Positions 1 through 63,578 of a DNA stretch of 64,000 bases are shown here, piece by piece. Within the stretch, counting starts at the first letter, position 1. Each line of letters starts with the position of its first letter. Made by a program: the position numbers and the translations under genes. Below the pieces are notes generated by a model. That model was not told the origin of the DNA and made no database searches. It saw nothing but the letters and a program-made list of their open reading frames with translations. Origin of the DNA: Sugiyamaella lignohabitans (Eukaryota; Ascomycota; Dipodascomycetes; Dipodascales; Trichomonascaceae). The stretch is from the NCBI RefSeq assembly GCF_001640025.1, contig NC_031671.1, positions 1,674,001 to 1,738,000 on the forward strand, given 5' to 3'.

Positions 1-2815
1 AAGTTGACTGATTTCGGTCAGAATGACCTCTCGTTCGCTCCTGAGCTGTTTAATCACTTCTTGATTGCGCTCGAGTTCAACACGAATATTATCAACTCTC
101 TTCTGAGTCTGTTGAGCCCGACCGGTCTCAAAATTAAGTCGCGTTTGTAATCTCGTACGTTGGCTAGAAAACTCAAGATTCTTCTTGTTAATTAGCTCCA
201 AATGACTACTCTGAGCTGTCTCAAACTCTTTAATATCGCTGATTCCCATACGAGCACACAGATCGCCGAAAATCGATTGACGAGTACGTTTGACTTTAGA
301 CTCGATCTTATTGATTTCATCATCATATTCAGCAATAGTCTTTTCCGTTTCGCCAATTGTTGGAACCACTTCACGACTGACTGTTTTGTGGTGCTGCAAT
401 TCAGACTGTCGACTTTCCAAAGTAATATTAAGAGTATTCAGACGGTCACGAGAATCTTGTAGTTTCATTTCAAGCCCACCAATCTCACTGATAAGCGATT
501 CTTCTTTGGTAGAATTCTCGTTCTTCTTCATCGTCAACTGTCTCAAGTCATTCGTCAGTTTATCTTTCAATCTGTACATACCGACGACATCCTTCTGCTC
601 CCATCTACGGGCATTACGGTTGTCAACTGTACCTCCGGAAATCATATTAGCACGGTGAATAATCGAACCATCCAAACATACCATCATTGCCTGAATATTT
701 CTAGACCATTTCATCTCTTTGGCAACTTCAATGTTATCACAAATAAGTGAGTTACTGCAGACAAATTGAACTGCCCGTTCAATTTCTGGTTTAAAACTGA
801 CAGTTTCAATTGCTAGTCGCACGTTACGTCCTAACGTACGCATTGAACTTGGAATTGGAGTGACAACAATCGTGTCTAGGGGAATGAAAGAGCAAGTACC
901 CTTACGCTGTTCCTTCAAGTACTCGATACACTCGCGAGCAGTCTTTTGACTGTCAACTACGATCGAGTCGAAATTACGTCCCAGGACGGTCGATACTGCA
1001 GTTTGATATCGTCTCTCTTTTGGTTCGAGCAGGTCACTGATAAGACCCTTGACACCAGGAAACAGTCGCTTCAAGCTTTCAGTATCTTCCTTCAACTTTA
1101 TCGTCTTTTCAGACTCCCGCACACTGGTATTATAATCGAGAAGTTGTCTAGCTACAGTTGCCAACTGAGAATTGAGCTCAGAAATATTTCGTTGCTTGTC
1201 TGACCGTTCAGAAATGATTTTATCCAATTGAGACTTCTTCGCCACGACCGATTCATTGTCGTCATTGATTGATTCAGAAATATGTTTAATCGATGATTTT
1301 AGATCTGCGATTTCCGATTGTAAAGCAGCAACTTTGGCCTTGGCTTCGTCACGCTTGTTAGTCAAACTGACCAATTTGTCGGTATTAGTTCTCTTGTTTC
1401 TCAACAGCGTTTCTAATCTAGACTGCTCGGCACTGGTCCTTAGCTTATAATCAGAGTTGAGCGCTTCATACTCCTTAATGACCTCATCAGACACATCACG
1501 CAGTCCAGATAATGCCGAAGACTGTTTGGACTCTACTTCGAACTTTTTGACTGCCTTGTCGAGAACTTCAAAGCCCTTTTGAACAATAGCGATCTCGCCA
1601 TTCTGGCGATCCAAATCGTGCTGAACGGCTGCTAGTCTGCTCTCTGCTTCTTTGACATGATGTTTCTTGAGCTTGATCTTTTCATTAATTGGCAACACGT
1701 CTTTCTGTCGCGACTCAATCTTCTTGACATACTGATGATGCTTTCGTTCCAAACTGCGATATTGATTATTAGCAGTGGCATAAGCACTATTAGCATTGGC
1801 AAGAATCTCCTCGGCTTCTGTAAGAGCATCCATTTTCTGCTGTATTTCCTCATCAAACGCTTTAATCTGCTCTTTCTTGCTAGAAATATCTCGTTCGATA
1901 TGATACAGTTTCCAGAGAATCAGATTTGTCTTAAGATTATCTCGTTCCTCAATCTTCTTGTTGTAGTTCTCGACTTCTGTCGTCTGGGTCTGATATTGCT
2001 TGACCTCAGCATTGTATTCTTTACGCTTCTGATAAGCAACAATGGACTCTCTACCCTTGACCTCGAGCTCTTTCTGAAGCTCGTCGTATTCTTTCTGGAA
2101 TTCAATAGAGCCAGACACTCTTTCAATCAAAGTCGCCAAATCCGACGGTTTCATAGCGGCCGTCTTTTCAACATCTCCTTGAAACACTAAGAAATTCTTT
2201 GCCTTGACAATGATATTCTCAGCCGCCAGGGTATCTTGGTATTCTTTTTCGGCCACCCGTTTGTCATTAATGAAATACTCACTGGTACCAGTGTTGGAGG
2301 CAGCAGCCGAAGACTGTCTTCTTCGGCCGGATCCTGTACCACGAACCCTAGATCTGTTAGAACTCTTCTGACCAAAGCTCGCGGAGCGAGCACAAAACGG
2401 GGTCTGGGGCAGCGCCCCAGCCGCCGAAGGCAAACTCCCAAAAGCCCACTTACGTTCGTTTGAGCTCGAGGATATCATTAGGAGCTCGTTCATAAACCAG
2501 TTTGACATGGCATGAGCGCGGGTCGGCGCCATTCTGGGATTGTGAGGGAGTTTCGTTGTCAGCAGAACCATCATTTTCACCCTCTTCGTTTTCAGATGAC
2601 ATAATTCGACCACGATAGACAAGCTGGTCCAGATGGTCACTTCGTAACTGTTTGGATCGCACACCTAGCACGAACGAAATGGCGTCCATCATGTTACTTT
2701 TGCCTGAACCATTAGGTCCAATAATGGAGGTGAAGAAAGCATCACCCAATTCCACAGTCTGGATACCGCGGTACGACTTGAAATTGAACAGCTCGATACT
2801 CCGTAATCTGCCCAT
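1..2815 (-). CDS. SMC1: Smc1, cohesin SMC subunit (N-terminal 905 residues, cut by window edge)
   Basis: ATPase subunit of the cohesin ring, which pairs with Smc3 to hold sister chromatids together in the nucleus. Exon 1 (2815-2454) encodes the ABC-type head with Walker A GPNGSGKS at residues 33-40. A 100-nt intron (2453-2354) has donor GTAAGT and ends CTAACAG, the acceptor directly abutting the branch motif; it contains one GC-rich hairpin repeat. Exon 2 (2353 to the edge) restores the frame into the conserved EYFIND...AENIIVKAKNFLVFQGDVE block, then the first coiled coil, the hinge (about residues 545-700, with GVKGLISDL and FDSIVVDS) and part of the second coil. The C-terminal head lies outside the window. 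Splicing is inferred from frame and conservation. An insert of about 20 residues rich in R, S and A follows the splice junction. The promoter has an ACGCGT box at 2919-2924. Confidence 0.95.
2377..2432 (-). repeat. GC-hairpin repeat, single arm, in SMC1 intron
   Basis: Hairpin one has loop AGC; hairpin two is GCTCGC-GGA-GCGAGC. The terminus reads GAAGGCA instead of GGAGGCA. The arm lies 15 nt from the SMC1 donor site. Confidence 0.9.
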
Positions 2816-3353: not shown

Positions 3354-3991
3354 CTAGGCCAGTTCTTGAGTAGCTTCTTTGACGAGCTTGGCATGTGCTT
3401 TCTCATGACCCTCGACTTTACCAACAATATTATAACGTAATGAGAAGAACGAGTACCAATCGTCTAGTACTTTGAGATCCGACGTAGGCAGGTCTTCGTA
3501 CTCAGGTTTGACATCATCGGGTTCTAAAGAAGTTCTAGCAAGTGCTCGAGAGGCATCTTTACCAGCAAACACATGGTAACCAGCTTCTGGACCGTAACTG
3601 GCCTTATTACGAGTGACATCAAACACCGTGCCCTTTACAGCCACATATATCTTTTCATTCTGAACACCTGTAATTTGTTAGATTTTCTTCATAGATCTTA
3701 ATTCTAAATCAAATGGGATCAAGTGGTCAACTCCTGCGAAGCAGGAGCAACCAGGGTCTGGGGCGGAGCCCCAGCCGCCGGAGGCAGACCCCTTTCTCCA
3801 GAAAAGAGCCAGCTGAGAAGTTCACCCCTGGATTAGAGCATTGCCGGGACCCCGATCGCAACATAATCAGTTTACTTACCATCGTACTGAGCGAGCTCTG
3901 TGAGAGTGAAAAGACGGTCTTGAGGTGGATCCAGTTTGACAGTGACTTTAGGAGCAAACCTTGACGTGCTAGTTGTAGTGCTATCAGCCAT
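3354..3991 (-). CDS. DAP1: Dap1, MAPR-family haem-binding cytochrome b5-like protein
   Basis: Dap1/PGRMC-type protein that binds haem and supports cytochrome P450 enzymes of sterol synthesis (Erg11) at ER or endosomal membranes. Exon 1 is 3991-3880 (37 codons plus one base). The intron is 3879-3668 (212 nt; donor GTAAGT, branch CTAAC, acceptor TTACAG) and holds one GC-hairpin arm. Exon 2 is 3667-3354. The 141-residue product has the b5-like fold: TLTELAQYDG, IYVAVKGTVFDVT, then GYHVFAGKDASRALA. Tyr68 is the likely axial haem ligand of the MAPR family. There is no obvious N-terminal membrane anchor, as in S. cerevisiae Dap1 (about 150 residues). Splicing is inferred from frame and motifs. Confidence 0.93.
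3731..3786 (-). repeat. GC-hairpin repeat, single arm, in DAP1 intron
   Basis: Canonical arm with hairpins CTCCTGC-GAA-GCAGGAG and GGGGC-GGA-GCCCC, ending GGAGGCA. It is the only intronic copy more than 30 nt from its donor (about 92 nt). Confidence 0.95.
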
Positions 3992-12584: not shown

Positions 12585-12637
12585 GGTCCGCGAAGCGGAC
12601 CACAACGGGTCCGGGCAGCGCCCGGCCGCCGGAGGCA
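12585..12637 (-). repeat. GC-hairpin repeat, variant single arm
   Basis: Both stems differ from the consensus yet remain perfectly paired: GGTCCGC-GAA-GCGGACC and CCGGGC-AGC-GCCCGG, ending GGAGGCA. This is a covariant copy. Confidence 0.9.
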
Positions 12638-12896
12638 CACCCCCCCTCCCCCAAGCCTTCTGCCCGCCAGGTTCGGGGGCCGTTATCAGCCCCCCTCCCC
12701 CCCTGAACGGGCAAATAAAAGCAGATCCGCGATTAACTTTTAACACGGTTCCGCGAGTGGGGTGATGTGACCCTAGCTCGCTGCTGATAAGACCCGGTCC
12801 CAAACCAACAGCCACATCCTTATCTACCTCCTGTTTAAAGTTATTTACATTCGGGATCCGACAGGAGTGGGAGGAGGAAATATGGGCCGGCCGTCC

Positions 12897-12947
12897 TGCC
12901 TCCGGCGGCTGGGGCTCCGCCCCAGACCCCGTGGCTCGCTTCGCTCG
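12897..12947 (+). repeat. GC-hairpin repeat, single arm
   Basis: Canonical TGCCTCC end and GGGGC-TCC-GCCCC hairpin, ending GGCTCGCTTCGCTCG. Confidence 0.9.
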
Positions 12948-14478: not shown

Positions 14479-14619
14479 TGCCTCCGGCGGCTGGGGCTCC
14501 GCCCCAGACCCTGGTTGCTCCTCTCGCTGCGCTCGAGTCGTTGCGTACATGGACCCAGCAGATCTCCTGCGAAGCAGGAGCAACCAGGGTCTGGGGCGGA
14601 GCCCCAGCCGCCGGAGGCA
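14479..14619. repeat. GC-hairpin element, full two-arm unit
   Basis: The left arm ends in CTCTCGCTGCGCTCGAGTCG. The linker is TTGCGTACATGGACCCAGCA. The right arm begins CTCCTGCGAAGCAGGAG. The inverted similarity continues outside the termini (GGGGGCC / GGCCCCC). Confidence 0.93.
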
Positions 14620-15114: not shown

Positions 15115-15167
15115 CTCGAGCGAAGCGAGCCACGGGGTCTGGGGCAGAGCCCCAGCCGCCGGAGGCA
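15115..15167 (-). repeat. GC-hairpin repeat, single arm
   Basis: CTCGAGCGAAGCGAGCC second hairpin; first hairpin with loop AGA; GGAGGCA end. Confidence 0.9.
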
Positions 15168-15768: not shown

Positions 15769-15819
15769 TGCCTCCGGCGGCTGGGGCTCCGCCCCAGACC
15801 CCGTGGCTCGCTTCGCTCG
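15769..15819 (+). repeat. GC-hairpin repeat, single arm (direct pair with the next)
   Basis: Canonical first hairpin, ending GGCTCGCTTCGCTCG. A second copy in the same orientation starts 21 bp further on. Confidence 0.9.
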
Positions 15820-15839
15820 GATTCGGGGGTGGGTGGATG

Positions 15840-15890
15840 TGCCTCCGGCGGCTGGGGCTCCGCCCCAGACCCCACGGCTCGCTTCGCTCG
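15840..15890 (+). repeat. GC-hairpin repeat, single arm (direct pair with the previous)
   Basis: Same structure as the copy at 15769, with CCCACGGCTCG in the linker. Confidence 0.9.
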
Positions 15891-16303: not shown

Positions 16304-16355
16304 ACGAGCGAAGCGAGCTACCGGGTCTGGGGCAGAGCCCCAGCCGCCGGAGGCA
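16304..16355 (-). repeat. GC-hairpin repeat, single arm
   Basis: First hairpin with loop AGA; CGAGCGAAGCGAGC second hairpin. It lies just downstream of the SLC35-like gene and in direct orientation with the copy at 16375. Confidence 0.9.
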
Positions 16356-16374
16356 AGTCCCGTCCGTCAAAAAT

Positions 16375-16429
16375 CTCCTGCGAAGCAGGAGCCACGGGGT
16401 CTGGGGCGGAGCCCCAGCCGCCGGAGGCA
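16375..16429 (-). repeat. GC-hairpin repeat, single arm
   Basis: CTCCTGC-GAA-GCAGGAG and GGGGC-GGA-GCCCC hairpins. It ends 35 bp from the stop codon of the transporter gene. Confidence 0.93.
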
Positions 16430-18080: not shown

Positions 18081-18174
18081 ACTCTCAAGCCACAAAAAAA
18101 GACATCTGCCCGCGATCGACTCAATCCACTTCACCACGCCGCGATCCAGGGCTAGGGTCCGTATCAGGGGGTAG

Positions 18175-18447
18175 GCCTCCGGCGGCTGGGGCTCCGCCCC
18201 AGACCCCGTGGCTCCTCTCGCTGCGCTCGAGTCGGGCATGGGGCCGGGGGTAGGTTTTTTGAGGGCGGAGTTGGGAAGCCCTTTTCGGGCCCCAAAATTT
18301 AGTTCACCCATGGCCAATTACTTCCTCTGGAGGAGTACCAAACCACCAGGAAACCATCTTCCGGGACGCTGCTGGCACCACGACGCCCGACTCGAGCGCA
18401 GCGAGAGGAGCCACGGGGTCTGGGGCAGAGCCCCAGCCGCCGGAGGC
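18175..18447. repeat. GC-hairpin repeat, inward-facing inverted pair
   Basis: Plus-orientation arm at 18175-18234 and minus-orientation arm at 18388-18447, separated by 153 bp. Both second hairpins are of the CTCGAG-GCGCAGC type. Confidence 0.9.
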
Positions 18448-18683
18448 ACGGCCCTCCTTCGGTAGCACCCCCAGGGGGCCGGAAGAGAGCGTGTCAGGCG
18501 TAGGATTGGCGGGATCTACAGGATATGCAGGGGTGATAATGCATGTTGGTGGACCCTGCAGAGGTAGAGGGTGCGGGGGAGGGGTGAGGGGGGTGGGGTT
18601 GTGATAATGGGGAGGGGGTATTGACGGAAAATAAGGGGGAAGGGGAGGAGGAGAGAACCGAGTCAGGCTCCGGCCGCTGGACG

Positions 18684-18821
18684 TGCTTCCGACGGCTGGG
18701 GCTCTGCCCCAGACCCCGTAGCTCCTGCTCCGTAGAAGATATTTGGGGCCCCGGCAGTACCGACTCGAGCGCAGCGAGAGGAGCCACGGGGTCTGGGGCG
18801 GAGCCCCAGCCGCCGGAGGCA
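18684..18821. repeat. GC-hairpin element, full unit with diverged left arm
   Basis: The left arm is mutated (TGCTTCCGACGGCTGGGG, then CTCCTGCTCCGTAG). The right arm is canonical, with CGACTCGAGCGCAGCGAGAG. The linker has diverged. Confidence 0.88.
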
Positions 18822-22063: not shown

Positions 22064-23899
22064 TTTGGGATTTGATAATGCAAATAGGGAGGTGGATTTG
22101 AAACAAAAAATGCAAAAAAACTTATAAATATGAGTAAAAGTCCTCGAAACTGAGATTTTAGCTCTTTTCAAGAAGTTATGATCTTCCTACATATTTTTTT
22201 TTTGAAAAAGTTAGATAAGGGCAAGGGTGCTGCGATTAAGCAGAGAATATATAACTTTGACACGGTAGTAGAAAAGGTTATTAGAGTAAATAACTGACAA
22301 AATAGACCTTATAATTCAAAAAGAAAAAGTATTAATAATAAGCAAAAACCCTCAAAGAGATTTGAGCATTCTTATACCCCTCTGGCAAAAAAAAGTTTTC
22401 AAAAAATTACAGCACCTTCTGTTCACGCCTGGTCTCCCACGGCATTACTGATCAAGGCTCTTAGAGGCTTGAATATGATTGATCGGACGGGAAATCTTAT
22501 TTTACTCTAGATATGGCCGTAACTGAACTGTAAGAAATGCGACAGCTGAGGAGTCTCACTCCTCCAACTAACCGACGGGTCACCGCGGTATGGTCACCCA
22601 CCGGGTTTCACAGAACACCGTGTATAAACATCCTGACGCGACGCGTAACATGATCTTAGGAAAGTAACAAATAGTCTTGTGAATAAAATTAGTAATTATA
22701 TCAGAATCCTTTAAAGGTCCTCTCTCGACCTCCGTATTCCTAGTATCCCCGTAACCGGACCTTTACTTGGATCCTGATTCTTACATGAACAAATAGTTTC
22801 TTTAGTGTATTTATACACAGTACTGGAGAAAATTAAAGGCTCTTTTAATACGCCCAATAATAAAGTTATTTGGCTAATAAGTCTATAATATTCTTTAGAC
22901 TATCACAAAGATCAATCAACTACAAGTTAGGTTACAACGCCATCAAAAAATGGTCAAATAAATCATTCTGAGTCCATTTTGTAATCTGATTTCAGGGCCC
23001 CATACTAATTTATAAATTGATTGTTTCCTAAAGCTCGTTACGTCTCTCGATAAGAATGGAAAGAGCAACTATCAACTCTAGAATCTGTTTCTGTTTAAAA
23101 GTGATAATTTAAAAGTGATATTTAGTTGATTTTATATTGATATAGAGATGGCAGTTCCTACTCATTCTATCCAAAATGCCACTGAGGGTCGTCAATAGCT
23201 GGCAAACTAGACATGCCTATAAAAAAAATAGAGAACAACAAAAATCAACCAATTTTAAGTCTTTTATGAAGCCCAGGGGAGCGTTGGTAATGGTCTTCTC
23301 TGGTAACTGCTGTCTAGTATATGTATCACTCATTATGGTAATTCTACATACACCTGCTATGTTGATGAATAAAATTGGTCTAATAGCAGGTATTTAGTAC
23401 TATTGAACTGATTTACCCCCCTCTTTTTATCTGCTCTTGAAGTCTTCACTGGTGGCATGAAGATCAACGTGTTAGTCTAGAGCACTGCTTCATCTCTAAG
23501 ACTACTTAATCACATCAATTCCCTATCAACAGAGGCCACTCGGAACCCAAGTGGCTTTTAATAAAAAACTACGAAGATTATTTATTTAATGTTCTTCCTT
23601 CTGTGAAAATAATAAATTGTTACGACAATATCGACTTTCCCTGACCGTTCCTGGATCTGCTCTCATGACTCCCAGCTGACCATATATATCGACTATGACC
23701 GTTGATCTTCCTATAATTAACATTTTCTGCTTCAGAAAAATTTAAGTTTTGAAAGTTTAAATGCCAAAGAATGTTAATACTCTAATTTACATTTATACTA
23801 TGCATATAAATATAATTTTGTAGTTTCATTAAAGAGCATTTAGAAGTTCTGACCATGCTTCAGTACTCGATCTACCCACTGCTGGGACAGTTGACAAAA

Positions 23900-23961
23900 C
23901 GACTCGAGCGTAGCGAGAGGAGCAGCCAGGGTCTGGGGCAGAGCCCCAGCCGCCGTAGGCA
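23900..23961 (-). repeat. GC-hairpin repeat, single arm
   Basis: CGACTCGAGCGTAGCGAGAG second hairpin with loop GTA; first hairpin with loop AGA; the terminus is mutated to GTAGGCA. Confidence 0.9.
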
Positions 23962-24192: not shown

Positions 24193-24357
24193 ATCCGGCA
24201 GTTGGGGAACTACCCCTCGTGGCTCTTCTCGATTCGCTGGAGTCGAGCGTAGGAGGACAGTTTCTAGCGGTCGGTGACGTGGTCGGGTCACCAAACAAAA
24301 CGACTGGAGCGAAGCGAGAGTAACCGGGGGGTCTGGGGTGCCCTGCCGCCGGAAACC
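24193..24357. repeat. Decayed GC-hairpin element pair
   Basis: Left arm remnant TCCGGCAGTTGGGG...CTCGATTCGCTGGAGTCGAG; right arm remnant CGACTGGAGCGAAGCGAGAG...GGGGTCTGGGG...GCCGCCGG. Point changes have broken the first-hairpin stems. Confidence 0.8.
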
Positions 24358-25130: not shown

Positions 25131-26816
25131 ATTTATTTGTTCGCTCGCTTGGGTTTAGACCAACTCGGACATCTAGCCTAGGGCCGCACTTTTTATTACT
25201 TGGATCTCATTACTTACTGCCTTTAAATCTTATTTGTTTTTGTTTTGTTTTCTTCTGTTTGTTTATTTTGCCTCGGAACTGTATATGAATTTATTGTAAT
25301 CTAACGATCCCACCTGACTTTACTCAGGGGGCCCTGCGTCCTCCTCCGGAGGCTGGGGCTCCGCCCCAGACCCCGCGGCTCCTCTCGCTTCGCTCGAGTC
25401 GTTTCGTCGGGCGGCCTAGCAGGCTTGAATACTATCAACGGGTGTAAACTGCTGCTGACTCTGGGACAGCAATCAAGCTTTGGGGCCTGCTGTCTCCTTT
25501 AGTAAGTCGAGTTCTTACAAGAGTCACTGCGATAATTAGGGCTATGAGCCCCTAACAACCCGATAATCTCTAGACTCACTTCCCCACGTTGGGTCTTCCC
25601 CGAAGCTCGACTCGAGCGCAGCGAGAGGAGCCGCGGGGTCTGGGGCGGAGCCCCAGAAAGGTCCCTGAAGAAAAACGTCAGCCACCCCCTGGTTGTCACC
25701 GGCGCCACAGGATCGCTCGAACGTGGCTCGGCGGGATGCCGTAACAAGTAGGGATGTGCTATTATTGCTATCTAGATAGGACCCCGTGCGTCCGATCTTT
25801 CCCTAGATCATGGCCGTCGGGAATTACTGTATCTAGTAATTGTCTTCGAAACATTCGAAAAACTCGACGGTTCTTCGAGAAGTGTCAACTGAAACAGAAA
25901 GAAAAACTGGTGGTGCCGTTCGTATGCTCGTGGTGTCTCTGAGCTGCGTTATAGGTGCGCTATAACATCACGGTACCGAATTTCGTTGGGTGATCGCGTG
26001 ACTGCATCGCAGCGTAATCTTTAAAAAGTTGCTTCTTTTTGATGTGCGTGCTACGTATCTGCCGTCATTCGCGTCGGGTACTTCTTACAGCTCCAACAAA
26101 TATTTCTGGGTGACAAATTGAACTCTTCTTTGGAAAACCCTCGTACGCAGGGCCGTCCTTCCGTTATATATTTTAAATATATAGAATAGATTTTTGGTGG
26201 TTAAAAAATAACATTCACCGGGCAATGAAATTAGGACCCTGAAATTTTTCATTTTCCCCAAAATTTGTCAGACCTAACTGGTATCCGACGAGGCGATCAC
26301 TGCCTTTTTTCAGAGCTGATATATGCAGATATGCAAATTTGATGTAACATGTGAAAGAATTCTGAACTCTCTTTATCATCAGCGTCAGCGAACGAAAAAG
26401 AAGCACCCGCAAAATCTAACGGCTCGACATAGATTACCCCTTCCTTCTTACATTAAAGATCGCTCTTTGCATTTAAGTTGTAATTTTTTTTTTCACAACT
26501 TCTTCTCTCCTTTGTTACTTCTACCTTCAGACGAAGTTTTCTACCCGAAAAAAGGTTTAATATTTTTCTGAGACCGATCTTTTGACAACAGTGTGATACG
26601 GAAGTACTAAAAAAGTATATTATCACAGTTTACTCGGATATCTTTGAGCTCCATATTGTTTTTTTTTGCTTATTGCTCCGCTCTCACTTCTTTTTGCTAT
26701 TAATTTTGGTTAGACATCTGATAATACAGAAGTAAAAACAAAAAAAAATTTTTTTTTCTCATTAAAAGAAAAATTTAAAAGTGCTGGTCACATACTTTCT
26801 ATAGTATATCATCAAA
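25131..26816. other. 1.7-kb intergenic region upstream of the permease gene
   Basis: Contains an inverted pair of GC-hairpin arms (25342-25656). Long T- and A-tracts lie between 26480 and 26780 ahead of the permease. No gene is supported. Confidence 0.6.
25342..25656. repeat. GC-hairpin repeat, inward-facing inverted pair, right arm truncated
   Basis: Plus arm at 25342-25401 (end mutated to CCTCCGGAGG). Minus arm at 25608-25656 breaks off inside the first hairpin after GCCCCAG and lacks the GGAGGCA end. The spacer is 206 bp. Confidence 0.85.
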
Positions 26817-28451: not shown

Positions 28452-28786
28452 ACAGCCGAACAAGCATATTACAGTCTGTTACATTTTTGCATTTTTGTTA
28501 GGTATATATATATAGAATACAGTGAATTATTTTTGTCACGAACCCCACGCAATTCCTCCGAAGCAGGAACCACGGGGTCTGGGGCGAAGCCCCAGCCGCC
28601 GGAGGCAGTAAGGGGGTCCGCGGTGTTGCCTCCGGCGGCTGGGGCTCCGCCCCAGACCCCGTGGCTCCTGCTTCGCAGGAGTTGCGTGGAGAAGTTGGCA
28701 CGCTTATATTTTATTATATAGTCGTCATTGCGAAACATGTACAAATAAATAAGGTAACTTCGCCGGGAAGTGCGAGGGAAATGATT
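28452..28786. other. Intergenic between convergent permease and FLC genes
   Basis: Dominated by the back-to-back repeat palindrome at 28545-28689. No gene. Confidence 0.75.
28545..28689. repeat. GC-hairpin repeat, outward-facing pair forming a long palindrome
   Basis: Minus arm (28553-28607) and plus arm (28627-28681) meet at their GGAGGCA/TGCCTCC ends across 19 bp. CCACGCAA (28545-28552) and TTGCGTGG (28682-28689) extend the inverted symmetry beyond the arms. Confidence 0.92.
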
Positions 28787-32644: not shown

Positions 32645-32705
32645 TGCCTCCGGCGGCTGGGGCTCCGCCCCAGACCCCGTGGCTCCTCTCGCTGCGCTTG
32701 AGTCG
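32645..32705 (+). repeat. GC-hairpin repeat, single arm
   Basis: Canonical first hairpin; CTCTCGCTGCGCTTGAGTCG second hairpin with one change. Confidence 0.92.
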
Positions 32706-33012: not shown

Positions 33013-33313
33013 TGCCTCCGGCGGCTGGGGCTCCGCCCCAGACCCTGGTTGCTCCTCTCGCTGCGCTCGAGTCGTTGCGAGGGGGGTCCTGGCTGCTCGG
33101 GGTGTGTTTTGTTTGAAGGTTTTGGGGGTGTTGAAATTCGTGTGATCTGACGGACCCCGCATCGCCAGATGCACCTGCATATGCACATGCACCGATAACA
33201 GGACCCTGATGTGCCAATAACCCCCTGAAAATGCGGGGGACCCCCCAACCCCGACTCGAGCGAAGCGAGAGGAGCAACCAGGGTCTGGGGCGGAGCCCCA
33301 GCCGCCGGAGGCA
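33013..33313. repeat. GC-hairpin repeat, inward-facing inverted pair
   Basis: Plus arm 33013-33074 and minus arm 33252-33313, with a 177-bp spacer. The pair ends 40 bp from the CAR2 stop codon. Confidence 0.92.
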
Positions 33314-34639: not shown

Positions 34640-35304
34640 GATGAATTTACGAAAATATCATTCAATCTCCACAGAGTTCAATAAATGATCCTTTTTACAA
34701 ATAAATAAAAACAAATAAATAAAATAAAAAGACCACACAATCCTCGGAAATTGACACTAATTTATATCCGGTCAAGTGTTATCTGCCCACATAAACTGAT
34801 CGACACAAATCCCCTATAGGCAGGGACTCGCGGCAATGTGCGGGTGGTCTTGCCTTTAACTGTCGTCTCTCGCGGGCAGTGAATAGGGTACGCCCCGGAC
34901 CTAACACTGTACCGGGACTCACAGCTGACGCCCATCGTTGCTGTTATGGGTAATCTGTTTCTCCGATAATACCCCTGAGTTCTGCCTCCGGCGGCTGGGG
35001 CTCCGCCCCAGACCCTGGTTGTGCTCGCTTCGCGAGCAGGTGGGGACCCGCTACCGCTGGCACCCACACGTAACGACTCGAGCGAAGCGAGAGGAGCCAC
35101 GGGGTCTGGGGCAGAGCCCCAGCCGCCGGAGGCATACCCCCCAGAGCGAAAGTAGCACCGAGAATTATGCCCATGCAGGTAGGATTATGCGGGAGAACTA
35201 GTATTATTCATTATGTGGTTCGTAGCTAATATAAATGCAGTCGTGGAAGAGTCGTTATTAAGTTATTTTAGTTTTGGTTGACAGAGTGTTTGCCAAAGTG
35301 GATC
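34640..35304. other. Intergenic between divergent CAR2 and the unknown small gene
   Basis: Contains one inverted GC-hairpin pair (34983-35134). An A-rich tract lies next to CAR2 (34690-34735). Confidence 0.7.
34983..35134. repeat. GC-hairpin repeat, close inverted pair with unlike second hairpins
   Basis: The left arm ends in GCTCGC-TTC-GCGAGC. The right arm begins CGACTCGAGCGAAGCGAGAG, and its first-hairpin loop is AGA. The 36-bp spacer is unrelated to the full-unit linker. Confidence 0.92.
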
Positions 35305-35769: not shown

Positions 35770-35770
35770 T

Positions 35771-38168: not shown

Positions 38169-38222
38169 TGCCTCCGGCGGCTGGGGCGCTGCCCCAGACC
38201 CCGTTGTGCTCGCTTCGCGAGC
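38169..38222 (+). repeat. GC-hairpin repeat, single arm
   Basis: First-hairpin loop GCT; second hairpin GCTCGC-TTC-GCGAGC. Confidence 0.92.
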
Positions 38223-38530: not shown

Positions 38531-38585
38531 CTCCTGCGAAGCAGGAGCCACGGGGTCTGGGGCAGAGCCCCAGCCGCCGGAGGCA
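38531..38585 (-). repeat. GC-hairpin repeat, single arm
   Basis: CTCCTGC-GAA-GCAGGAG; first-hairpin loop AGA; preceded by a C-run. Confidence 0.93.
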
Positions 38586-39423: not shown

Positions 39424-39477
39424 TGCCTCCGGCGGCTGGGGCGCTGCCCCAGACCCCGTTGTGCTCGCTTCGCGAGC
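39424..39477 (+). repeat. GC-hairpin repeat, single arm
   Basis: Same subtype as the copy at 38169 (loop GCT; GCTCGC-TTC-GCGAGC). The two arms are identical over their length as far as I can read. Confidence 0.93.
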
Positions 39478-40079: not shown

Positions 40080-40141
40080 CGACTCGAGCGAAGCGAGAGG
40101 AGCAACCAGGGTCTGGGGCGGAGCCCCAGCCGCCGGAGGCA
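40080..40141 (-). repeat. GC-hairpin repeat, single arm, BST1 promoter
   Basis: CGACTCGAGCGAAGCGAGAG and GGGGC-GGA-GCCCC, ending 111 bp upstream of the BST1 start codon. Confidence 0.93.
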
Positions 40142-43405: not shown

Positions 43406-43745
43406 ACCCACTTTGTGTATCAATATTTATTAGACTTAAACTCCTTGGGTGGGGTCTGCCTCCGGCGGCTGGGGCTCCGCCCCAGACCCTGGTTGCTCCT
43501 CTCGCTGCGCTCGAGTCGTTTCGTCGACGGGTCCCAGCAAAATCTCCTGCGAAGCAGGAGCAACCAGGGTCTGGGGCGGAGCCCCAGCCGCTGGGGGCAG
43601 TCCCCCCTGGAAATACCCCACAGGGCTGGAGCCGCATCACCGCGAACGGCACCGCCAAATGCACGTTGCATCAAAGACTCCTACAGCTTCCACGCTGCTG
43701 TTGACTCCTGGATATTGAATCTGGTTTTACTACGCAATTACAAAA
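43406..43745. other. Intergenic between BST1 and the Asterix gene
   Basis: Filled largely by one full GC-hairpin unit. The remaining 145 bp must serve as the Asterix promoter. Confidence 0.75.
43457..43599. repeat. GC-hairpin element, full two-arm unit
   Basis: CTCTCGCTGCGCTCGAGTCG arm, linker with GTCGACGGGTCCCAGCA, CTCCTGCGAAGCAGGAG arm. The right end is mutated to GGGGGCA. GTC flanks both ends. Confidence 0.95.
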
Positions 43746-44270: not shown

Positions 44271-44412
44271 TGCCTCCGGCGGCTGGGGCTCCGCCCCAGA
44301 CCCTGGTTGCTCCTGCTTCGCAGGAGATTTTGCTGGGTCCGTCGACGCAACGACTCGAGCGCAGCGAGAGGAGCAGCCAGGGTCTGGGGCGGAGCCCCAG
44401 CCGCCGGAGGCA
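44271..44412. repeat. GC-hairpin element, full two-arm unit
   Basis: Opposite polarity to the unit at 43457, with linker complement CGTCGACGGACCCAGCA. It fills the gap between convergent Asterix and BIK1. Confidence 0.95.
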
Positions 44413-47290: not shown

Positions 47291-47431
47291 TGCCTCCGGC
47301 GGCTGGGGCTCCGCCCCAGACCCTGGTTGCTCCTGCTTCGCAGGAGACTCGTGGGCACCGCCGAGAGAACGACTCGAGCGCAGCGAGAGGAGCAGCCAGG
47401 GTCTGGGGCGGAGCCCCAGCCCCCCGAGGCA
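47291..47431. repeat. GC-hairpin element, full unit with diverged linker
   Basis: CTCCTGC arm on the left, CGACTCGAGCGCAGC arm on the right. The linker has drifted, and the right end reads CCCCCGAGGCA. Confidence 0.92.
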
Positions 47432-47587: not shown

Positions 47588-48111
47588 ATGTCGATGCTAC
47601 TGGACCAAGCACTGGTCGAGGACGTAAGTAACCCGGGCGGCGGTATGCCTCCGGCGGCTGGGGCTCCGCCCCAGACCCTGGTTGCTCCTGCTTCGCAGGA
47701 GATTCCCGGACCGTCGACGCAACGACTCGAGCGGAGCGAGAGGAGCAATCCGGGTCTGGGGCGGAGCCCCAGCCGCCGGAGGCATGTCCCCACCCCCCAG
47801 GAGAGACACTAACGGGCCCGCAGGTCGCCAAGTACTGTCCGGCGGTGTTTTTGGACTACCACAAATGTTTGCTGGGAGGAGATGCGTCCAAGTGTCTGGA
47901 GCAGCAGGAGGCGCTGGCCGCGTGTGTGAAGACAAAGGTGCCGTCGTTCGTCAAGATTCTGAAGGACTGTTCGGATAAAATGAAGGCCTATGAGGACTGT
48001 GTTCGTGAGAATCCCACGGTGCGGTCCAAATGCTTTGACTCGCTACAAGACATGCGCAAATGCTCGGCCGACTCGCTCAAACTCAAGGAACACGATGACG
48101 ACTCGAAATGA
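47588..48111 (+). CDS. MIX14: Mix14/Mic14 twin CX9C intermembrane-space protein
   Basis: Small mitochondrial intermembrane-space protein imported by the Mia40 disulfide relay. Exon 1 (47588-47623) encodes MSMLLDQALVED. The 200-nt intron (47624-47823; GTAAGT, ACTAAC, GCAG) contains a full GC-hairpin unit. Exon 2 is 47824-48111. The 107-residue product has four CX9C pairs: Cys17/27, 36/46, 61/71 and 82/92. It shares the pattern DVAKYCPAVFLDYHKC and VPSF...DCSDKMKAYEDC with yeast Mic14. No presequence, as expected for Mia40 clients. Without splicing, the initiating Met and first helix would be lost. Confidence 0.92.
47646..47784. repeat. GC-hairpin element, full unit, in MIX14 intron
   Basis: CTCCTGCTTCGCAGGAG arm, linker with CCGTCGACGC, CGACTCGAGCGGAGCGAGAG arm with loop GGA. 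It starts 22 nt after the donor. Confidence 0.95.
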
Positions 48112-48232: not shown

Positions 48233-48294
48233 TGCCTCCGGCGGCTGGGGCTCCGCCCCAGACCCTGGTGGCTCCTCGAGCTTCGCTCGAGGAG
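48233..48294 (+). repeat. GC-hairpin repeat, single arm with extended second stem
   Basis: The second hairpin is a perfect 10-bp stem, CTCCTCGAGC-TTC-GCTCGAGGAG. It joins features of the two common subtypes. Confidence 0.93.
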
Positions 48295-49134: not shown

Positions 49135-49273
49135 TGCCTCCGGCGGCTGGGGCTCCGCCCCAGACCCTGGTTGCTCCTGCTTCGCAGGAGTTTGCTGGGA
49201 CCGTCGACGTGCCGACTCGAGCGTAGCGAGAGGAGCCACGGGGTCTGGGGCAGAGCCCCAGCCGCCGGAGGCA
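49135..49273. repeat. GC-hairpin element, full unit, 3' of TRM112
   Basis: Reads as an exact reverse complement, 139 bp, of the unit at 49570-49708 in the TRM112 intron. Confidence 0.96.
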
Positions 49274-49430: not shown

Positions 49431-50017
49431 CTAGTTGGCGAGGTGGGGAGGCAGCAGGAAGTTGGCGATAGAGTTCTTGATGTAGTAGACATGGCCACAG
49501 TTGCGGCACGTCATTGAGCCCTCGGTGATGTGGGTCTGTGGCCGGGTTAGTTTGTGTGGACGGTGGATGTGCCTCCGGCGGCTGGGGCTCTGCCCCAGAC
49601 CCCGTGGCTCCTCTCGCTACGCTCGAGTCGGCACGTCGACGGTCCCAGCAAACTCCTGCGAAGCAGGAGCAACCAGGGTCTGGGGCGGAGCCCCAGCCGC
49701 CGGAGGCACAGACACTGTGGATAACTTACCTCTAGCAACAGGCTGTGGAGATCCTGTAGCAGCTGCTGGACTTCTGGGGCATCGGCGTCTTCGATTTCGG
49801 GTTTGGCAGATGGCAGGCTGGTATTTCCAAGGTCTTCTGCCACTTGTATCAGGGCGTGCCAGTCTAGTTTGGGGAGCAGGTTGAGAATCAGCTGGTGGTC
49901 GAAGTCGACTTCCTGCTGGACCAGTTGAGCGTCGGTGAACTTGAGCGGGAAGGCGTCGCTCGACCGGCTACAAGTGGACACCGCGCACTGAACAAAGTTG
50001 GTGGTCAGGAATTTCAT
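49431..50017 (-). CDS. TRM112: Trm112, activator subunit of methyltransferases
   Basis: Zinc-binding partner that stabilises and activates Trm9, Trm11, Bud23 and Mtq2, acting in tRNA, rRNA and release-factor methylation. Exon 1 is 50017-49730 (96 codons). The 194-nt intron (49729-49536; GTAAGT, CTAAC, CACAG) contains a full GC-hairpin unit. Exon 2 is 49535-49431. The 130-residue product keeps MKFLTTNFVQC, Cys11/Cys16, LDWHALIQVAEDLG, CRNCGHVYYIKNSIANFLLPPHL and Cys106/Cys109. Without removal of the intron, half of the zinc site would be lost. Exon 2 is bracketed by two identical inverted repeat units. Confidence 0.95.
49570..49708. repeat. GC-hairpin element, full unit, in TRM112 intron
   Basis: CTCTCGCTACGCTCGAGTCG arm, linker GCACGTCGACGGTCCCAGCA, CTCCTGCGAAGCAGGAG arm. 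Its end near the donor lies 20 nt inside the intron. Confidence 0.96.
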
Positions 50018-50242: not shown

Positions 50243-50383
50243 CGACTCGAGCGAAGCGAGAGGAGCAACCAGGGTCTGGGGCGGAGCCCCAGCCGCCGGA
50301 GGCGCACACCCCGGGAGACGCTGCCTCCGGCGGCTGGGGCTCCGCCCCAGACCCTGGTTGCTCCTCTCGCTTCGCTCGAGTCG
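50243..50383. repeat. GC-hairpin repeat, outward-facing pair
   Basis: Minus arm 50243-50303 and plus arm 50322-50383, with terminal ends 18 bp apart. Both second hairpins are CTCGAGCGAAGCGAG type. Confidence 0.93.
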
Positions 50384-51436: not shown

Positions 51437-54400
51437 ATGGCCCGCCGTCAGGTGAGGTTCGGCATCAAAGCCCAGCTCAGTCTGTTCGTGTGCGTGGCCG
51501 CCATGTTCAGTCTCGGCGTGCTGTCCGTCGCTACCGTAAGTTTACGCCAGGGGGTGGTACACTGCCTCCGGCGGCTGGGGCTGCGCCCCAGACCCCACTG
51601 CTCCTCTCGCTGCGCTCGAGTCGTTTCGTCGACGGTCCCAGCAATCTCCTGCGAAGCAGGAGCCACGGGGTCTGGGGCGGAGCCCCAGCCGCCGGAGGCA
51701 CTTTGGGGACGAGACCCATGTACTAACCAGATCAGTTTGTCAGTAACCGTTCGTTGGTGCTCGATCTGAGAAGGGACAAGTTGAAGGTGATTGCGCAGAT
51801 GAAGGCCGCTCAGGTGACCCAGGCGGTGGGGAGTTTGAATGGCCAGTCGATCCTGCTCAGTAGTAGGACGTTTGTGCAGAATCTGCTCGCTACTTATTAT
51901 ACGACGGGTATGATAGAACCCGATGATTCGAACCTGAAACAGGCTGAATTGTCGGTTGAATCGACTGACGATGTCATTTCAGCCGCTTTGTTCGCATTGA
52001 ATCTCAATCAGGTGGTACTGATTCCTAGTTTAGACGGTGTCAATGATACAGCTCCACCGGACGAGCTGCTGCCTGCGACATTTATGACTACTGAACAGCT
52101 TTCGAATTATACAAGCGTATACGACAGTTATGTTTTGGGCCCTGTGAAAGTGGGCAACCGGTTTTATATGTCGTTTACGCGACTCGTGGTTCAGAATACG
52201 GCTGATTTCACTTACAAAAATATAGGAGGTAACAGCTCGTCTGATCGAGGCAATAATATTGGCTATATCACAGTCGTGACAAGGGCAAAACCGATATTTA
52301 GCGTCATTAAAGACCCTACTGGACTCGAGTCGACCGGTGATATGGCTCTTGTACAGCTTCAAAGAGGTAATTTAGACGGCACGTTCAGTGCAAATGGGTC
52401 GTATATTTTGGGGACTTATGTCCTGCCAACCACTTTCCAGCAGACTTTGTATAATACTACGTTTGTGCTAGGGACGTATAAAGAAATCAATCCCCTAGAA
52501 GGGTTTCCTGGATCTTTTATTAATGAGGCTTCGGTTTATAATGGCAAGAATTCCGGCGGTTATGCGCCTGCGTCGGTTTTAAATGCCCAATGGACTGTGC
52601 TTATTTATCAGGATCATGAGGTTATCTATGGACCTCTTTACAGATTACGCAATATGTTACTTATTGCAGTGTTTTCCATTGGCGTGGGCATGTTTATTGG
52701 AACAATGTTCTTGTCAAGTTGGGCAGTGAAACCAATATTGAGGCTCCAATCTGCTACTGAACAGTCGGCGAATAATTCAAGTAACTCGTCGTGGCCTGGT
52801 TCGGATAAAGGCAAAAAGAAGTGGCTGAAATGGCTGACTCCATGGGTTTTCTTTAGATCATCGAATCATCGACAAGGTCCTAGAAGTCGACAGATGCAGA
52901 GAGGACCTGCTGACCCTTTTCATGATTTCTACGGAAATGAGAAACCCAACCATACTGCTGCTGATGGCCATAGCCCATTGACTAATAGCGATACTGTAGC
53001 ATGGTATGTGCCGATTCTAGAACGAGTTGGTTTACGACCCAGTGACAATCGTCGAGGCAGCGGCAATAGCAGTCTAGCCAATAATATTGGCGATAATGAT
53101 AATGCATTAGAGAGAAGAATGTCAGCGAGTTCGACAGGATTTCGAATTCCCGAAAAAGTCAGTACTCGACGACGAATTAAAGACGAGCTGACAGACTTGA
53201 CTGAAAAGTTCAACGAAATGACCGACGAGCTTCGAAAGCAGTATTCAATTTTGGAAGAGCGTGTTATTGAACGTACGAGGGAGATTGAAAGTGCTCGATT
53301 GAGTGCTGAAGCTGCAAATGCATCAAAGTCACTGTTCATTGCTAACATCACCCACGAGTTGCGAACTCCGCTCAATGGTATTCTAGGAATGACTGCTGTG
53401 TCTATGGATGAAGAAGATCCGAAAAAGATTCAAGAATCGCTTAAAATCATTTTCAAATCTGGTGAACTGCTGCTTCACTTGTTGACTGAATTACTTACTT
53501 TTTCAAAGAATCAAGTAGGAAACGAGGATTTAGAAGAGAAAGAGTTTATGATCCCCGAGGCGGTAACTCAATTGAATGCTATTTTTGGAGAGCAAAGCAA
53601 GACAGCTCAAATCGACTTGTCAATTGTCTGTGTGACAGAGGGATTGACAGATTTGGTGTTCTATGGTGATATCAACCGTATCTTGCAAATTGTCATTAAC
53701 CTCATTTCCAACAGTCTTAAGTTCACTCCAAAAGGCGGACGGGTCGACGTGACGATATCGGGTATTATCAGTAAACATGTTCGGGAATCTGTCGCTGAAG
53801 AGTCTGGTAGAAGCACTAAAACGGGTGCCAGTTCACATAAATCGTCTATTTCATCGGCCTCTCCTCTAACTTCTCGAAGAAGGTCGTCTAATGAAAGGAC
53901 TCCCAAGAGATACCCCAGCGAAGTCTTATCGGAAATTTCTGGTAAACAAGAAAACAGTACATTCACAAAAGACACATCATCCATTGAAACAGCAGCTACC
54001 AAGACTACTACTAGCAACGAGTTGGAAATAGACGACCCGCATTATCGTCAGGATATAGATGACGAGATACACGACAAGGTGACAGCATTACAACCACGAG
54101 AACATCAAACAGATGTTTCACATTCTGGTCATGAGGACCATGATAGCGATAGTCCAGACGACGAGACAGCCACAGTTATTTTCCAGGTCAGTGATACTGG
54201 TCCTGGTATTGCTCCACATATGCAGAATCGCATTTTCGAAGCATTTGTACAGGGTGAGTTAGCATTGTCACAGCGGACAGGAGGAGCTGGTCTAGGCTTG
54301 TCCATCTGTCGACAACTAGCAACGTTAATGGGAGGTACAGTAGAATTATCATCCGAGCTTGGAAAGGGGTCAACATTCACATTCAAAGTTCCTCTTCATG

Positions 54401-55345: not shown

Positions 55346-55509
55346 TGCCTCCGGCGGCTGGGGCTCTGCCCCAGACCCCGTGGCTCCTCTCGCTTCGCTC
55401 GAGTCGGGGCTTGGACCGAGGGGGATGGTTTGCTGGCACGCCCCACGCCCGACTCGAGCGAAGCGAGAGGAGCCACGGGGTCTGGGGCGGAGCCCCAGCT
55501 GCCGGAGGC
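55346..55509. repeat. GC-hairpin repeat, close inward-facing inverted pair
   Basis: Plus arm 55346-55406 (loop TCT) and minus arm 55450-55509 (end GGAGGCT), with a 43-bp spacer. It starts 65 bp after the SLN1 stop. Confidence 0.93.
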
Positions 55510-56123
55510 TCACCGGATCGAGACCAGTCAGGGCTGCGGTTCAAATGCTAGCTAACTCTGAATTATAGTTTATTTCGTGACAGGTGCATGAGCGGCTTCT
55601 TGAGTCACTGTGGACTTAACTCCGGCTACTAGTCTGAGTAAGCTAGTGGGCAGGGCTAGGAACGGAGATAGTCGTGATGCGCGGAGCGGACGACGGAGAT
55701 GCTAAACGGATGGCTTAAAAGTGGGCTAAGATAAGATTATGACTCAATTTAAAGCTTGTATTAGTCGTATACGGCAGTTCCTTTGTATTCCACCTGCATT
55801 TGCCCTAAAAAGAGTTAAATGGCGTGCCCACGCTGTTTCTCAGTTACGTCCGTGGTACATGTGTGTGGTTGCACTATAGCGCGGGCTTAACGACTAAGCC
55901 TGATTGACGATGCACCTTAGCTATCTTACGTAAAAACCGTTGGATCAACTGAAAAATTCCCGTGTTAGGCAATCGATTGGTAATTATATTACTGAGCTTC
56001 ATCCTTGTTTGGTAATTGACATCCTCGTTAACAGTTTGGTGCGCGGTCGATGCGCCAGCGGACGACGGACCATTAGTAACTTTATAGTGCATTGTGGGCT
56101 GTGAAGATGATGTCCGAAACGAA

Positions 56124-59298: not shown

Positions 59299-59360
59299 AA
59301 TTGCATGTCCCGACAAATTTCCAAACTTAATATTCTTGTTCATTTTTGTCTATATATACA

Positions 59361-61834: not shown

Positions 61835-63578
61835 ATGACTGAGCCATCAATGGAACCCATAGAAAATTCCACAGCGGAATCAGTGGCCAACAAACCCAGT
61901 TCTTCAGATAATACGGACAGCATATTCAAAAGCACAGTTGACGTAGGGAACGAAGATCAATCATCAGAAGGAGCGAGTTCAAATACAACGGAAAATGATC
62001 CAGGCAGCCTTCAAACCGAAAAAGCCTATCTCCCCAAAATGTTTAAATTATTTATTTTTCTCGGCATTGCATTAGTTATATTCCCGCCATTAGCATTGAA
62101 GTTTGGACATATCTCTGGTTTATCGAAGAGCCAAGATCCACATCCACCAGCTGAGACATTTAGAAGAATCTTAGACCTGACATATTTGCCAGGAGCCCCT
62201 ATAGAAGAAAAGAATCGTACACAAATTGGAACGGAGAATGCTGTCATGTTCATGCTCGTCAGAAACTTTGAAGTTCAAGATGCCCTAGACTCGATACGGC
62301 AAATTGAAGACAGATTTAATCGAAATTATAGATATCCATGGGTGTTCCTGAACGATGATGATTTCACCGAGGAAGTAAGTAGAGTTCCTATGAGATTACT
62401 GGGGCAATGAACACCAAATGTTTTTGTAGCAAAGAGACGTGCGGATAGTCAGGACTAACAAATGACAGTTTATAACACTCACATCAGGACTGGTATCTGG
62501 AGAAGCAGCTTATGGCAAGGTTCCAGTGGAGCACTGGTCGGTCCCAGAAAGTATAAACAAGACCCTGATGAAGCAGCGGATGGAAACGCTCGAAGCGAAT
62601 AACATCATCTACGGAGGCAGTCTCTCGTACCGAAATATGTGCAGATTCAACTCCGGTTTCTTCTTCCGTCATCCACTGATGTTACCGTACGACTGGTACT
62701 GGCGAGTCGAGCCTGGCGTGAAGTACTACTGCGATCAGAGATAGTAAGTATCACAACCTTACCGGGAACAACTCGAGATCCGGACTCCACGCCGCTCGCG
62801 AAGCGAGCACAACCAGGTCTGGGCGGAGCCCAGCCGCCGGAGGCACAACACAGGTACTAACAGTTTCCAGCGACCCATTCTCGTTTCTCAAGAACAATGG
62901 CAAGAAATACGGGTTTGTGATTACTATCTACGAGTACATTGAGACCATTCCCACTTTGTGGAGTACAGTCAAGTCGTTCCTAGACAGCCATTCAGAATAT
63001 ATCGCGCCTGACAATGCTCTGGGTTTTATTACAGACAATTCGCGACTGCGGCCAAACGATATTGTGCTCGACACGGACGGCAGCGAGTATAATCTTTGTC
63101 ATTTCTGGAGCAACTTCGAGATTGCCGACCTCAATTTCTTCAGAAGTAAGGAGTATCTCGAGTACTTCGAGCATCTCGACAAGACTGGTGGGTTTTACTA
63201 CGAACGCTGGGGAGATGCTCCGGTCCACACACTTGCATTAACGGCGCTACTGAACAGGACTCAGATCCACCATTTCTCGGATATTGGGTACAGGTAAGTT
63301 GAGGGGGTGTCGATACCTCCGGTGGCTGGGGCGGAGCCCAGACCCCGTGGCTCCTGCTTCGCAGGAGATTGCTTGGGCGGCGGACTAACTTATTGACCAG
63401 ACATTCGCCATACTTCCGTTGTCCGCATGACGAGGCGTCTTATATCTCGGGTCGTTGTGTTTGTAACGAGTTCCGAGCGGATATAGCCGATTTGCAGCCA
63501 TTCTCGTGTCTTCCGAAATGGTGGCACCACGCCGGAAGACAGTTCATGTTCAACTTCACGGACGTGGCCATGCTGTAA
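61835..63578 (+). CDS. Kre2/Ktr-family alpha-1,2-mannosyltransferase (GT15)
   Basis: Golgi type II membrane glycosyltransferase adding alpha-1,2-mannose to O- and N-glycans. Four exons are inferred: 61835-62374, 62469-62743, 62871-63293 and 63401-63578, giving 471 residues. Introns are 94, 127 and 107 nt, all with GTAAGT donors and CTAAC branch sites; introns 2 and 3 each hold a GC-hairpin arm. The cytosolic tail is unusually long, with the anchor at about 70-89. The catalytic region has YPWVFLNDDDFTEE, EHWSVPESINK, YRNMCRFNSGFFFRHP, YDWYWRVEPGVKYYCD, EYNLCHFWSNFEIADL and TGGFYYERWGDAPVH, matching Kre2/Ktr. Splice joins are supported by Kre2-like sequence across each junction. It converges on RPB4. 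Confidence 0.94.
62794..62845 (-). repeat. GC-hairpin repeat, single arm, in KTR intron 2
   Basis: First hairpin shortened on both sides (CTGGGC-GGA-GCCCAG). The second hairpin is GCTCGC-GAA-GCGAGC. Confidence 0.93.
63316..63367 (+). repeat. GC-hairpin repeat, diverged single arm, in KTR intron 3
   Basis: CCTCCGGTGGCTGGGGCGGA, then GCCCAGACCCCG. The first stem is unequal, the second is CTCCTGC-TTC-GCAGGAG. It starts about 20 nt after the donor. Confidence 0.9.

Follow-up and report, generated by a model that had tools for sequence, protein, structure and literature searches.

A dense family of hairpin repeats with a REPIN-like layout in the nuclear genome of the yeast Sugiyamaella lignohabitans

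Introduction

Bacterial REP/REPIN sequences consist of short hairpin arms that occupy extragenic DNA in high copy, with inverted doublets as the unit and singles as likely remnants (PMC3116915). Yeast mitochondrial GC clusters are also short GC-rich hairpins, with stems that are more conserved than their loops and with units that have been merged and shuffled (PMC4478555), and double-hairpin elements of fungal mitochondrial DNA (mtDNA) are mentioned in PMC5910586. The symmetrical stwintrons and introner-like elements of Hypoxylaceae are near-palindromic, have terminal inverted repeats (TIRs) of 45-55 nt and no flanking duplication, and supply many similar introns per genome (PMC8469720), while miniature inverted-repeat transposable elements (MITEs) are short, non-autonomous in layout and bounded by TIRs. 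Here we describe a family of GC-rich fold-back repeats that resembles each of these systems in the traits just given, and that we studied in a 64,000-nucleotide stretch of the Sugiyamaella lignohabitans genome (NC_031671.1, positions 1,674,001 to 1,738,000; hereafter the window) and in samples from the rest of that genome.

The S. lignohabitans family also differs from each of these systems. Unlike REP/REPIN sequences, it resides in a eukaryotic nucleus, has three hairpins per arm and usually two different inner hairpins per unit, includes intronic copies, and is accompanied by no Y1 transposase that we could find. Unlike mitochondrial GC clusters and double-hairpin elements, it is nuclear, numbers ~10,000 arms by extrapolation, forms composite units of 137-143 bp, enters introns, and showed no fixed target duplication. 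In Hypoxylaceae the element is itself the intron and functions on the coding strand only, whereas most copies of the present family lie outside introns and the intronic ones lie in either orientation. It differs from MITEs in that we found neither a consistent target-site duplication (TSD) nor a transposase match in the families searched, and in its GC-rich composition and multi-hairpin arms. With introners it shares the occurrence of similar introns at many genes (18 of 113 blocks; 240 versus 36 sites genome-wide, see below). The words "yeast" and "Saccharomycotina" are absent from the main text of an introner survey of thousands of genomes (PMC9860276), and we found no report of this hairpin family in the literature searched, although the species' genome paper lay outside that search and may mention it.

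On balance, and judging from sequence, the nuclear genome of S. lignohabitans probably harbours a non-autonomous family of hairpin-structured DNA elements, whose layout is like that of REPINs although they are not REPINs themselves. If, as the loop signature described below suggests, folded DNA is what is maintained, then the spread of mitochondrial GC clusters and REP-like hairpins becomes testable in a yeast that can be cultured and whose sequenced relatives include S. novakii, with a chromosome-level assembly (PMC12232646). The frequent occurrence of the family in introns bears on the growth and origin of introns in yeasts.

Results and Discussion

A dense repeat family absent from supported coding exons

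We examined 264 kb for copies of the repeated arm, comprising the window and 20 stretches of 10 kb from elsewhere in the genome, with a 38-nt profile derived from 127 seeds in these sequences, and therefore not independent of them, at a threshold of at least 12 bits. The window holds 49 arms, which form 34 blocks when arms with neighbours less than 140 nt apart are merged. The 200 kb sampled outside it hold another 126, giving a total of 175, one of which is a second call of a single hairpin on the opposite strand (sample position L026:2230, 13 bits). No arm reached the threshold in the reversed, uncomplemented control sequence.

The published genome has 16.0 Mb in four chromosomes, ~50% coding, with dispersed 5S genes (PMC5499181). 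Our genome-wide counts cover an assembly of 15.93 Mb in four contigs, each longer than 2 Mb and none of them mitochondrial, in which one exact 23-mer from the arm matched 3,333 times (1,703 forward and 1,630 reverse), and its reversed pattern 0 and 0 times. At the 0.63 arms/kb of the samples, extrapolation to the ~16-Mb genome gives about 10,000 arms of this one hairpin element.

These counts bear out a preliminary description of the window, made from its letters alone, which had reported a dense family of fold-back repeats in a yeast nuclear genome, with about 53 copies at 37 loci; the profile count is close to this, some diverged copies (12589-12639 and 24291-24349) lying under its threshold, and the DNA belongs to the chromosomes of S. 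lignohabitans. Singles, direct pairs, inverted pairs and two-arm units, in both orientations, are all present in the window as that description said, and the two stretches that it gave as free of copies (about 3.8-12.5 kb and 55.5-62.8 kb) contain no arm at the profile threshold.

The absence of copies from coding sequence, also claimed there, is pronounced: none of the 49 window arms overlaps a supported coding exon (34,048 bp, from a list compiled in the present analysis), compared with a mean of 19 and a minimum of 9 when blocks were placed at random in 2,000 trials. Within the window, arm density is alike in tandem (15 arms in 14.6 kb), divergent (12 in 12.5 kb) and convergent (3 in 1.8 kb) gaps between genes; a terminator or insulator function is not favoured, since there is no bias towards convergent regions.

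In the sampled genome, GC-rich stretches dense in elements are interspersed with AT-rich stretches that lack them. Three of the 20 samples hold no arm, and the GC content of the surrounding DNA, measured outside the elements, tracks arm density (Spearman 0.82, 52 bins), with a GC fraction of 0.415 in 11 arm-free bins versus about 0.47 in 29 bins with at least three arms.

Each arm carries three hairpins with a GNA loop signature

Read 5' to 3', an arm comprises an inner hairpin, a short joint, a main hairpin (CTGGGGC-nnn-GCCCCAG) and a terminal hairpin (GCC-GGA-GGC) that usually ends in A. Inner hairpins fall into types. Type A has the form CGACTCGAGC-GNA-GCGAGAGGAG and was assigned to 95 arms, which match it at 16 or more of 23 positions. 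All 95 have a GNA loop, with A at the variable position in 52, C in 30, T in 10 and G in 3. All non-Watson-Crick positions in the type A stem are G.A pairs, in tandem, each of which is kept in 83-89 of these 95 arms chosen by type likeness. Tandem sheared G.A pairs suit DNA.

Type B inner hairpins have regular stems, for instance CTCCTGC-GAA-GCAGGAG, GCTCGC-GAA-GCGAGC and TTCCCGC-GAA-GCGGGAA. Paired changes occur at pair 2 (TA in 48, GC in 12), pair 4 (CG in 46, TA in 15) and pair 5 (TA in 42, CG in 19; n=62), counts that make a biased test because the stems had been preselected for at least six of seven pairs. Of the 62 type B loops, 60 read GAA or GGA.

GNA loops recur in the other two hairpins, closing 108 of 152 in the main and 140 of 155 in the terminal position, compared with only 4 of 43 unrelated triloop hairpins closed by C-G and lying away from arms. 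On G-C stems, GNA loops reportedly yield extraordinarily stable, nuclease-resistant DNA mini-hairpins (PMC4686876). This loop signature suggests that it is the folded DNA of the GNA-bearing strand that matters.

Two inverted arms form a composite unit

Head-to-head order accounts for 65 of 157 neighbouring arm pairs. Where the arms are under 140 nt apart (61 pairs) it predominates, with 46 pairs against 7, 6 and 2 in the other orders. Among these 46 close pairs, 33 are spaced 54-70 nt and 25 make units of 137-143 bp. Thus, the core of the unit, which runs from TGCC to GGCA and consists of two inverted arms around a short linker, is most often 137-143 bp long. About half of the arms are found in head-to-head units and about half are single; single arms often retain pieces of the linker (read by eye), and so they look like halved units.

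We were able to score inner hairpins, TIR subtype (CCA or CG type) and main loop in 34 of the 41 units. An A and a B inner hairpin are combined in 25 of the 34, and TIR subtypes are concordant in 29, compared with 17.1 +/- 2.9 when partners were shuffled. Judged from these two features, the unit is a genuine composite and no chance meeting of two arms. Moreover, nearby units are more similar to each other than distant ones (0.895 versus 0.861, P=8e-6, in pairs that are not independent), which is what local gene conversion or local spread would give.

The copies in the window are as follows (entries given without a strand have none assigned), together with one dispersed RNA gene.

2348..2453, minus strand: intron of an SMC1-like gene with one arm (2395-2432, arm on plus strand); candidate 3' splice site
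3668..3879, minus strand: intron of a cytochrome b5-like gene with one arm (3749-3786, arm on plus strand)
12589..12639, plus strand: diverged arm below profile threshold (family D12)
12897..12934, minus strand: single arm
14479..14619: two-arm unit, head to head
15130..15167, plus strand: single arm
15769..15877, minus strand: direct arm pair
16318..16429, plus strand: direct arm pair
18174..18211, minus strand: single arm
18411..18448, plus strand: single arm
18684..18821: two-arm unit
22404..22524, minus strand: dispersed 5S rRNA gene, RNA family match at gathering threshold
23924..23961, plus strand: single arm with linker remnant
24291..24349, plus strand: truncated arm that keeps the inner hairpin and the start of the main one (family D6)
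25341..25378, minus strand: single arm
25631..25668, plus strand: single arm, 3' end lost
28570..28664: arm pair in plus-minus order
32645..32682, minus strand: single arm
33013..33050, minus strand: single arm
33276..33313, plus strand: single arm
34983..35134: two-arm unit
38169..38206, minus strand: single arm
38548..38585, plus strand: single arm
39424..39461, minus strand: single arm
40104..40141, plus strand: single arm
43457..43599: two-arm unit
44271..44412: two-arm unit
47291..47431: two-arm unit
47624..47823, plus strand: intron of a CX9C-domain gene with a two-arm unit (47646-47784)
48233..48270, minus strand: single arm, inner hairpin perfectly paired over 10 bp
49135..49273: two-arm unit, the same sequence (100%) as 49570-49708 in inverted orientation
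49536..49729, minus strand: candidate consensus intron with a two-arm unit (49570-49708)
50267..50359: arm pair in plus-minus order
51536..51730, plus strand: consensus intron near the 5' end of a hybrid histidine kinase gene, with a two-arm unit (51563-51700); candidate 3' splice site
55346..55510: two-arm unit, long spacer
62744..62870, plus strand: intron of a KTR/KRE2-like gene with one arm (62810-62847); splicing restores the protein
63294..63400, plus strand: next intron of the KTR/KRE2-like gene, with one arm (63313-63350, arm on minus strand); splicing restores the protein

The flanks of the identical units at 49135-49273 and 49570-49708 diverge outward of TGCC/GGCA. Since these 139-bp units stand in inverted order with 296 bp between them, the interval 49135-49708 is a possible substrate for inversion.

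Similarity changes abruptly at the ends of the core. Beyond GGCA, the arm strand is C-rich for ~14 nt, with a C fraction of about 0.46-0.72 at positions 4-13, and further out the composition hardly varies (159 of the 175 arms, at least 30 bits). Among 57 CCCCTGA motifs in the sampled DNA, 12 begin 7-10 nt past GGCA, each of them in the orientation of the arm. Mean pairwise identity over 147 arms is 0.965 in the core, 0.365 in the outer tract and 0.251 beyond it. This step at GGCA is the least explained feature of the family, and would mean either that the core has been homogenised by conversion or that the outer tract is not copied along with it. Direct repeats of 5 nt are in excess in the flanks of 46 units (48, versus 30 +/- 6.5 in shuffled flanks, with none of 100 shuffles reaching 48), with no common offset. 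Pairing between the outer flanks of a unit showed no excess over shuffled partners (105 versus 107.9).

Copies of the family lie within introns

While the preliminary description was right about the repeats and their layout, it had overlooked their presence in introns, as well as the triple-hairpin anatomy with GNA loops, the C-rich ends of ~14 nt and the likeness to mitochondrial elements. When arms of at least 16 bits were grouped into 113 blocks, 18 blocks lay between a 5' splice site and a CTAAC...AG, compared with 1.35 +/- 1.3 in random placement, and 95 lay outside consensus introns; this intronic placement is a new observation. Across the genome, GTAMGT is found 3-33 nt upstream of an exact arm end at 240 sites, compared with 36 in the antisense control, and CTAAC is found 3-33 nt downstream of an arm end at 449 sites, a figure without antisense control. 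Spacing, taken from the first 100 of the 240 and the first 100 of the 449, was 16.2 +/- 5.8 nt on the 5' side and 20.7 +/- 5.1 nt on the branch-point side, and the distance from block to 5' splice site is typically about 21 nt.

We worked out intron geometry for 15 of the 18 blocks located in introns, excluding L021:8944, L022:4372 and L027:7532 as long or doubtful; nine of the 15 hold a two-arm unit. Intronic copies occur in either orientation; among the nine units four run from A to B, three from B to A, and two have the same type twice. Since both orientations are found, the element does not set the direction of splicing. Without the core, these nine introns would measure 49-64 nt, which is usual in this genome, and without a further 14 nt per side they would measure 21-36 nt, where the shortest element-free candidate among the matches listed has 47 nt. 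Element-free candidate introns are at least as common as those with copies, with 283 and 319 matches in two size classes versus 80 and 61 in controls, alternative AGs being counted separately.

Consensus splicing of the 15 introns restored several conserved proteins in frame, including in the window those of the CX9C gene, the cytochrome b5-like gene (which we take to be such from its protein sequence) and the KTR-like gene at both of its arm-bearing introns. Genes similarly restored in the samples presumably encode TMA7, a glycosylphosphatidylinositol (GPI) mannosyltransferase, formyltetrahydrofolate synthetase, a syntaxin and Rab5.

The KTR-like gene (61835 to about 63580) has three introns, of which the second and third each contain one arm. 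Five KTR-like paralogues (45-53% identical) are uninterrupted across the first two introns, one arm-free and one arm-bearing, and a sixth, partial match is also open there; the third intron falls outside the stretch compared. This pattern fits either intron gain in this gene or intron loss in the paralogues.

Other relations considered

As for bacterial or viral relatives, a 33-nt pattern had no match in collections of genome contigs and viral contigs, a search for exact matches that divergent relatives could escape. The 5S rRNA gene was the only match to a known RNA family in the window at gathering threshold, and no relation to tRNA was found. The genome does contain long interspersed nuclear elements (LINEs), with 13 reverse-transcriptase matches, among them three copies (L033, L034 and L035) of about 5.4 kb that are 95-99% identical and lie at unrelated sites. 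These three copies have A/T-rich tails and ends unrelated to the arm, with no arm in the surrounding 23.5 kb, and for them we rejected a short interspersed nuclear element driven by the LINEs.

A probable non-autonomous hairpin family and its rivals

We infer from sequence that the family has moved, and the mobile unit would be the two-arm unit. It would have spread by insertion, in the past or still today, and probably through a hairpin-ended or single-stranded DNA form. This route is suggested by the GNA signature, which is consistent with a DNA fold and, at either end of the unit, is borne by the strand whose 3' terminus lies there. Copies would have become fixed where they are harmless, in intergenic DNA and introns; single arms would be decayed or halved units; and cores might be kept alike by local gene conversion, by continued copying, or by both. 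The mobilising activity may be host repair. The preliminary description had likewise suggested a non-autonomous family, which is the best reading, and the hairpin-templated spread that it also proposed may have occurred. Its comparison with REP/REPIN sequences stands for the layout of inverted doublets plus singles. Membership fails, both because no Y1 transposase was matched by a search with working controls and because the host is not bacterial.

Several results weigh against this non-autonomous family on folded DNA. Y1_Tnp (PF01797) had no match in the S. lignohabitans genome, where 5 of 14 control genomes were matched, and DDE_3 had none with its controls working; Helitron_like_N (PF14214) and hAT gave no match in the genome, and no control genome matched either, which leaves these two blanks without weight. 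No target duplication of constant length or place was found in the flanks of the 46 units, and the drop in identity from 0.965 in the core to 0.365 in the outer tract is hard to square with simple transposition alone. Loops other than GNA occupy 44 of 152 main hairpins (AGA in 26, AGC in 15, others in 3), and main loop types agree within units at chance level (21 of 34, versus 17.9; P=0.09). Finally, by standard DNA folding energies the type A arm is no more stable than its shuffles (z -0.38), possibly because these energies give sheared G.A pairs no credit; type B arms are supported by the same folding, with z -2.67 (two copies of identical sequence) and -2.91.

The main rival, possible in our estimation but rather doubtful, is that these are ordinary MITEs, once moved by a conventional DDE transposase that is now lost or outside the families searched, and that their target duplications have decayed. 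The TIR would then be longer, namely CTGGGGGAGGGGGGTG-TGCCTCCGG (read by eye), with its outer 14-16 nt degraded. Two inverted arms with matched TIR subtypes would fit such elements, as would the surplus of short direct repeats flanking the units and the C-rich outer tract, which often ends near CCCCTGA or CCCCAG (12 of the 57 CCCCTGA motifs beginning 7-10 nt past GGCA, all 12 arm-oriented). Nevertheless, the contrast between core and tract is unlike the equal ageing of one inserted element, no fixed duplication was found, and both the GC-richness and the structured loops speak against a MITE; the blank for DDE_3 was obtained with working controls, but that for hAT without a matching control, and other DDE families lay outside the search. 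An introner family, whose insertion into exons creates introns with splice signals taken from the target or from its own ends, and whose intergenic copies are the same element, is in our view unlikely. It would account for the 240 GTAMGT sites (36 antisense) upstream of one element end and the 449 branch-point-like sites downstream of the other, for their tight spacing, and for the nine introns that shrink below the 47 nt of the shortest element-free candidate listed if core and 14-nt tracts are both taken away. Furthermore, the compared KTR-like stretch has an arm-bearing intron where five paralogues are uninterrupted, and introners that have TIRs and no TSD, or that carry neither splice site, have been described (PMC9860276). 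However, an intron-creating role is not favoured: 95 of 113 blocks lie outside consensus introns, those inside occur in both orientations, and removal of the core alone leaves a normal intron. The compared KTR-like stretch also has an arm-free intron that the paralogues lack, which makes intron loss as likely as gain. Nor is there much conservation between splice signals and core apart from G/C-richness (100 branch-point rows minus 7, then 62 with A before CTAAC, compared with 57 of the 100 listed for element-free introns, where alternative-AG duplicates, two very short introns and the last rows were left out).

That the repeats were copied into the nucleus from mitochondrial GC clusters or double-hairpin elements, or gave rise to these, is very unlikely, although the two look the same, as short GC-rich hairpins with exchanged modules and varying loops. 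The TTCCCGCGAAGCGGGAA hairpin in particular may resemble a mitochondrial GC cluster of S. cerevisiae. Mobile, merging clusters have been described in yeast mtDNA (PMC4478555). Least likely of these explanations is that the arms are host signals (terminators, insulators or splicing aids) conserved by selection and not spread by insertion. Such signals could explain the very uniform core, the GC-rich domains and the regular position in introns, but not the similar density in tandem, divergent and convergent gaps, the three arm-free 10-kb samples, the single intronic arms on either strand relative to the gene, or the hundreds of candidate introns without an element.

A bolder reading, unlikely in our view, is that a nuclear mobile system operates on folded single-stranded DNA: GNA hairpins at both 3' ends would protect and prime the DNA intermediate, and its capture at open, transcribed DNA would let the family invade introns and, at some genes, found new ones. 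If so, these hairpin elements would be invaders of introns in a budding yeast and would give the mitochondrial double-hairpin elements a nuclear counterpart, a case of which we found no example in the literature searched.

Other observations

At least two automatic gene models of S. lignohabitans include translated copies, since two database proteins of this species (P0004 and P0005) contain translated arms; judging by its sequence, the one of them annotated as calmodulin may be a gene model on the wrong strand or with a retained intron. Short tandem repeat arrays at window positions 13712-13879 and 51126-51184 have no relation to the arms. A second small palindrome, with CCCCTGA...TCAGGGG ends, adjoins arms at L021:7282-7330 and L021:7580.

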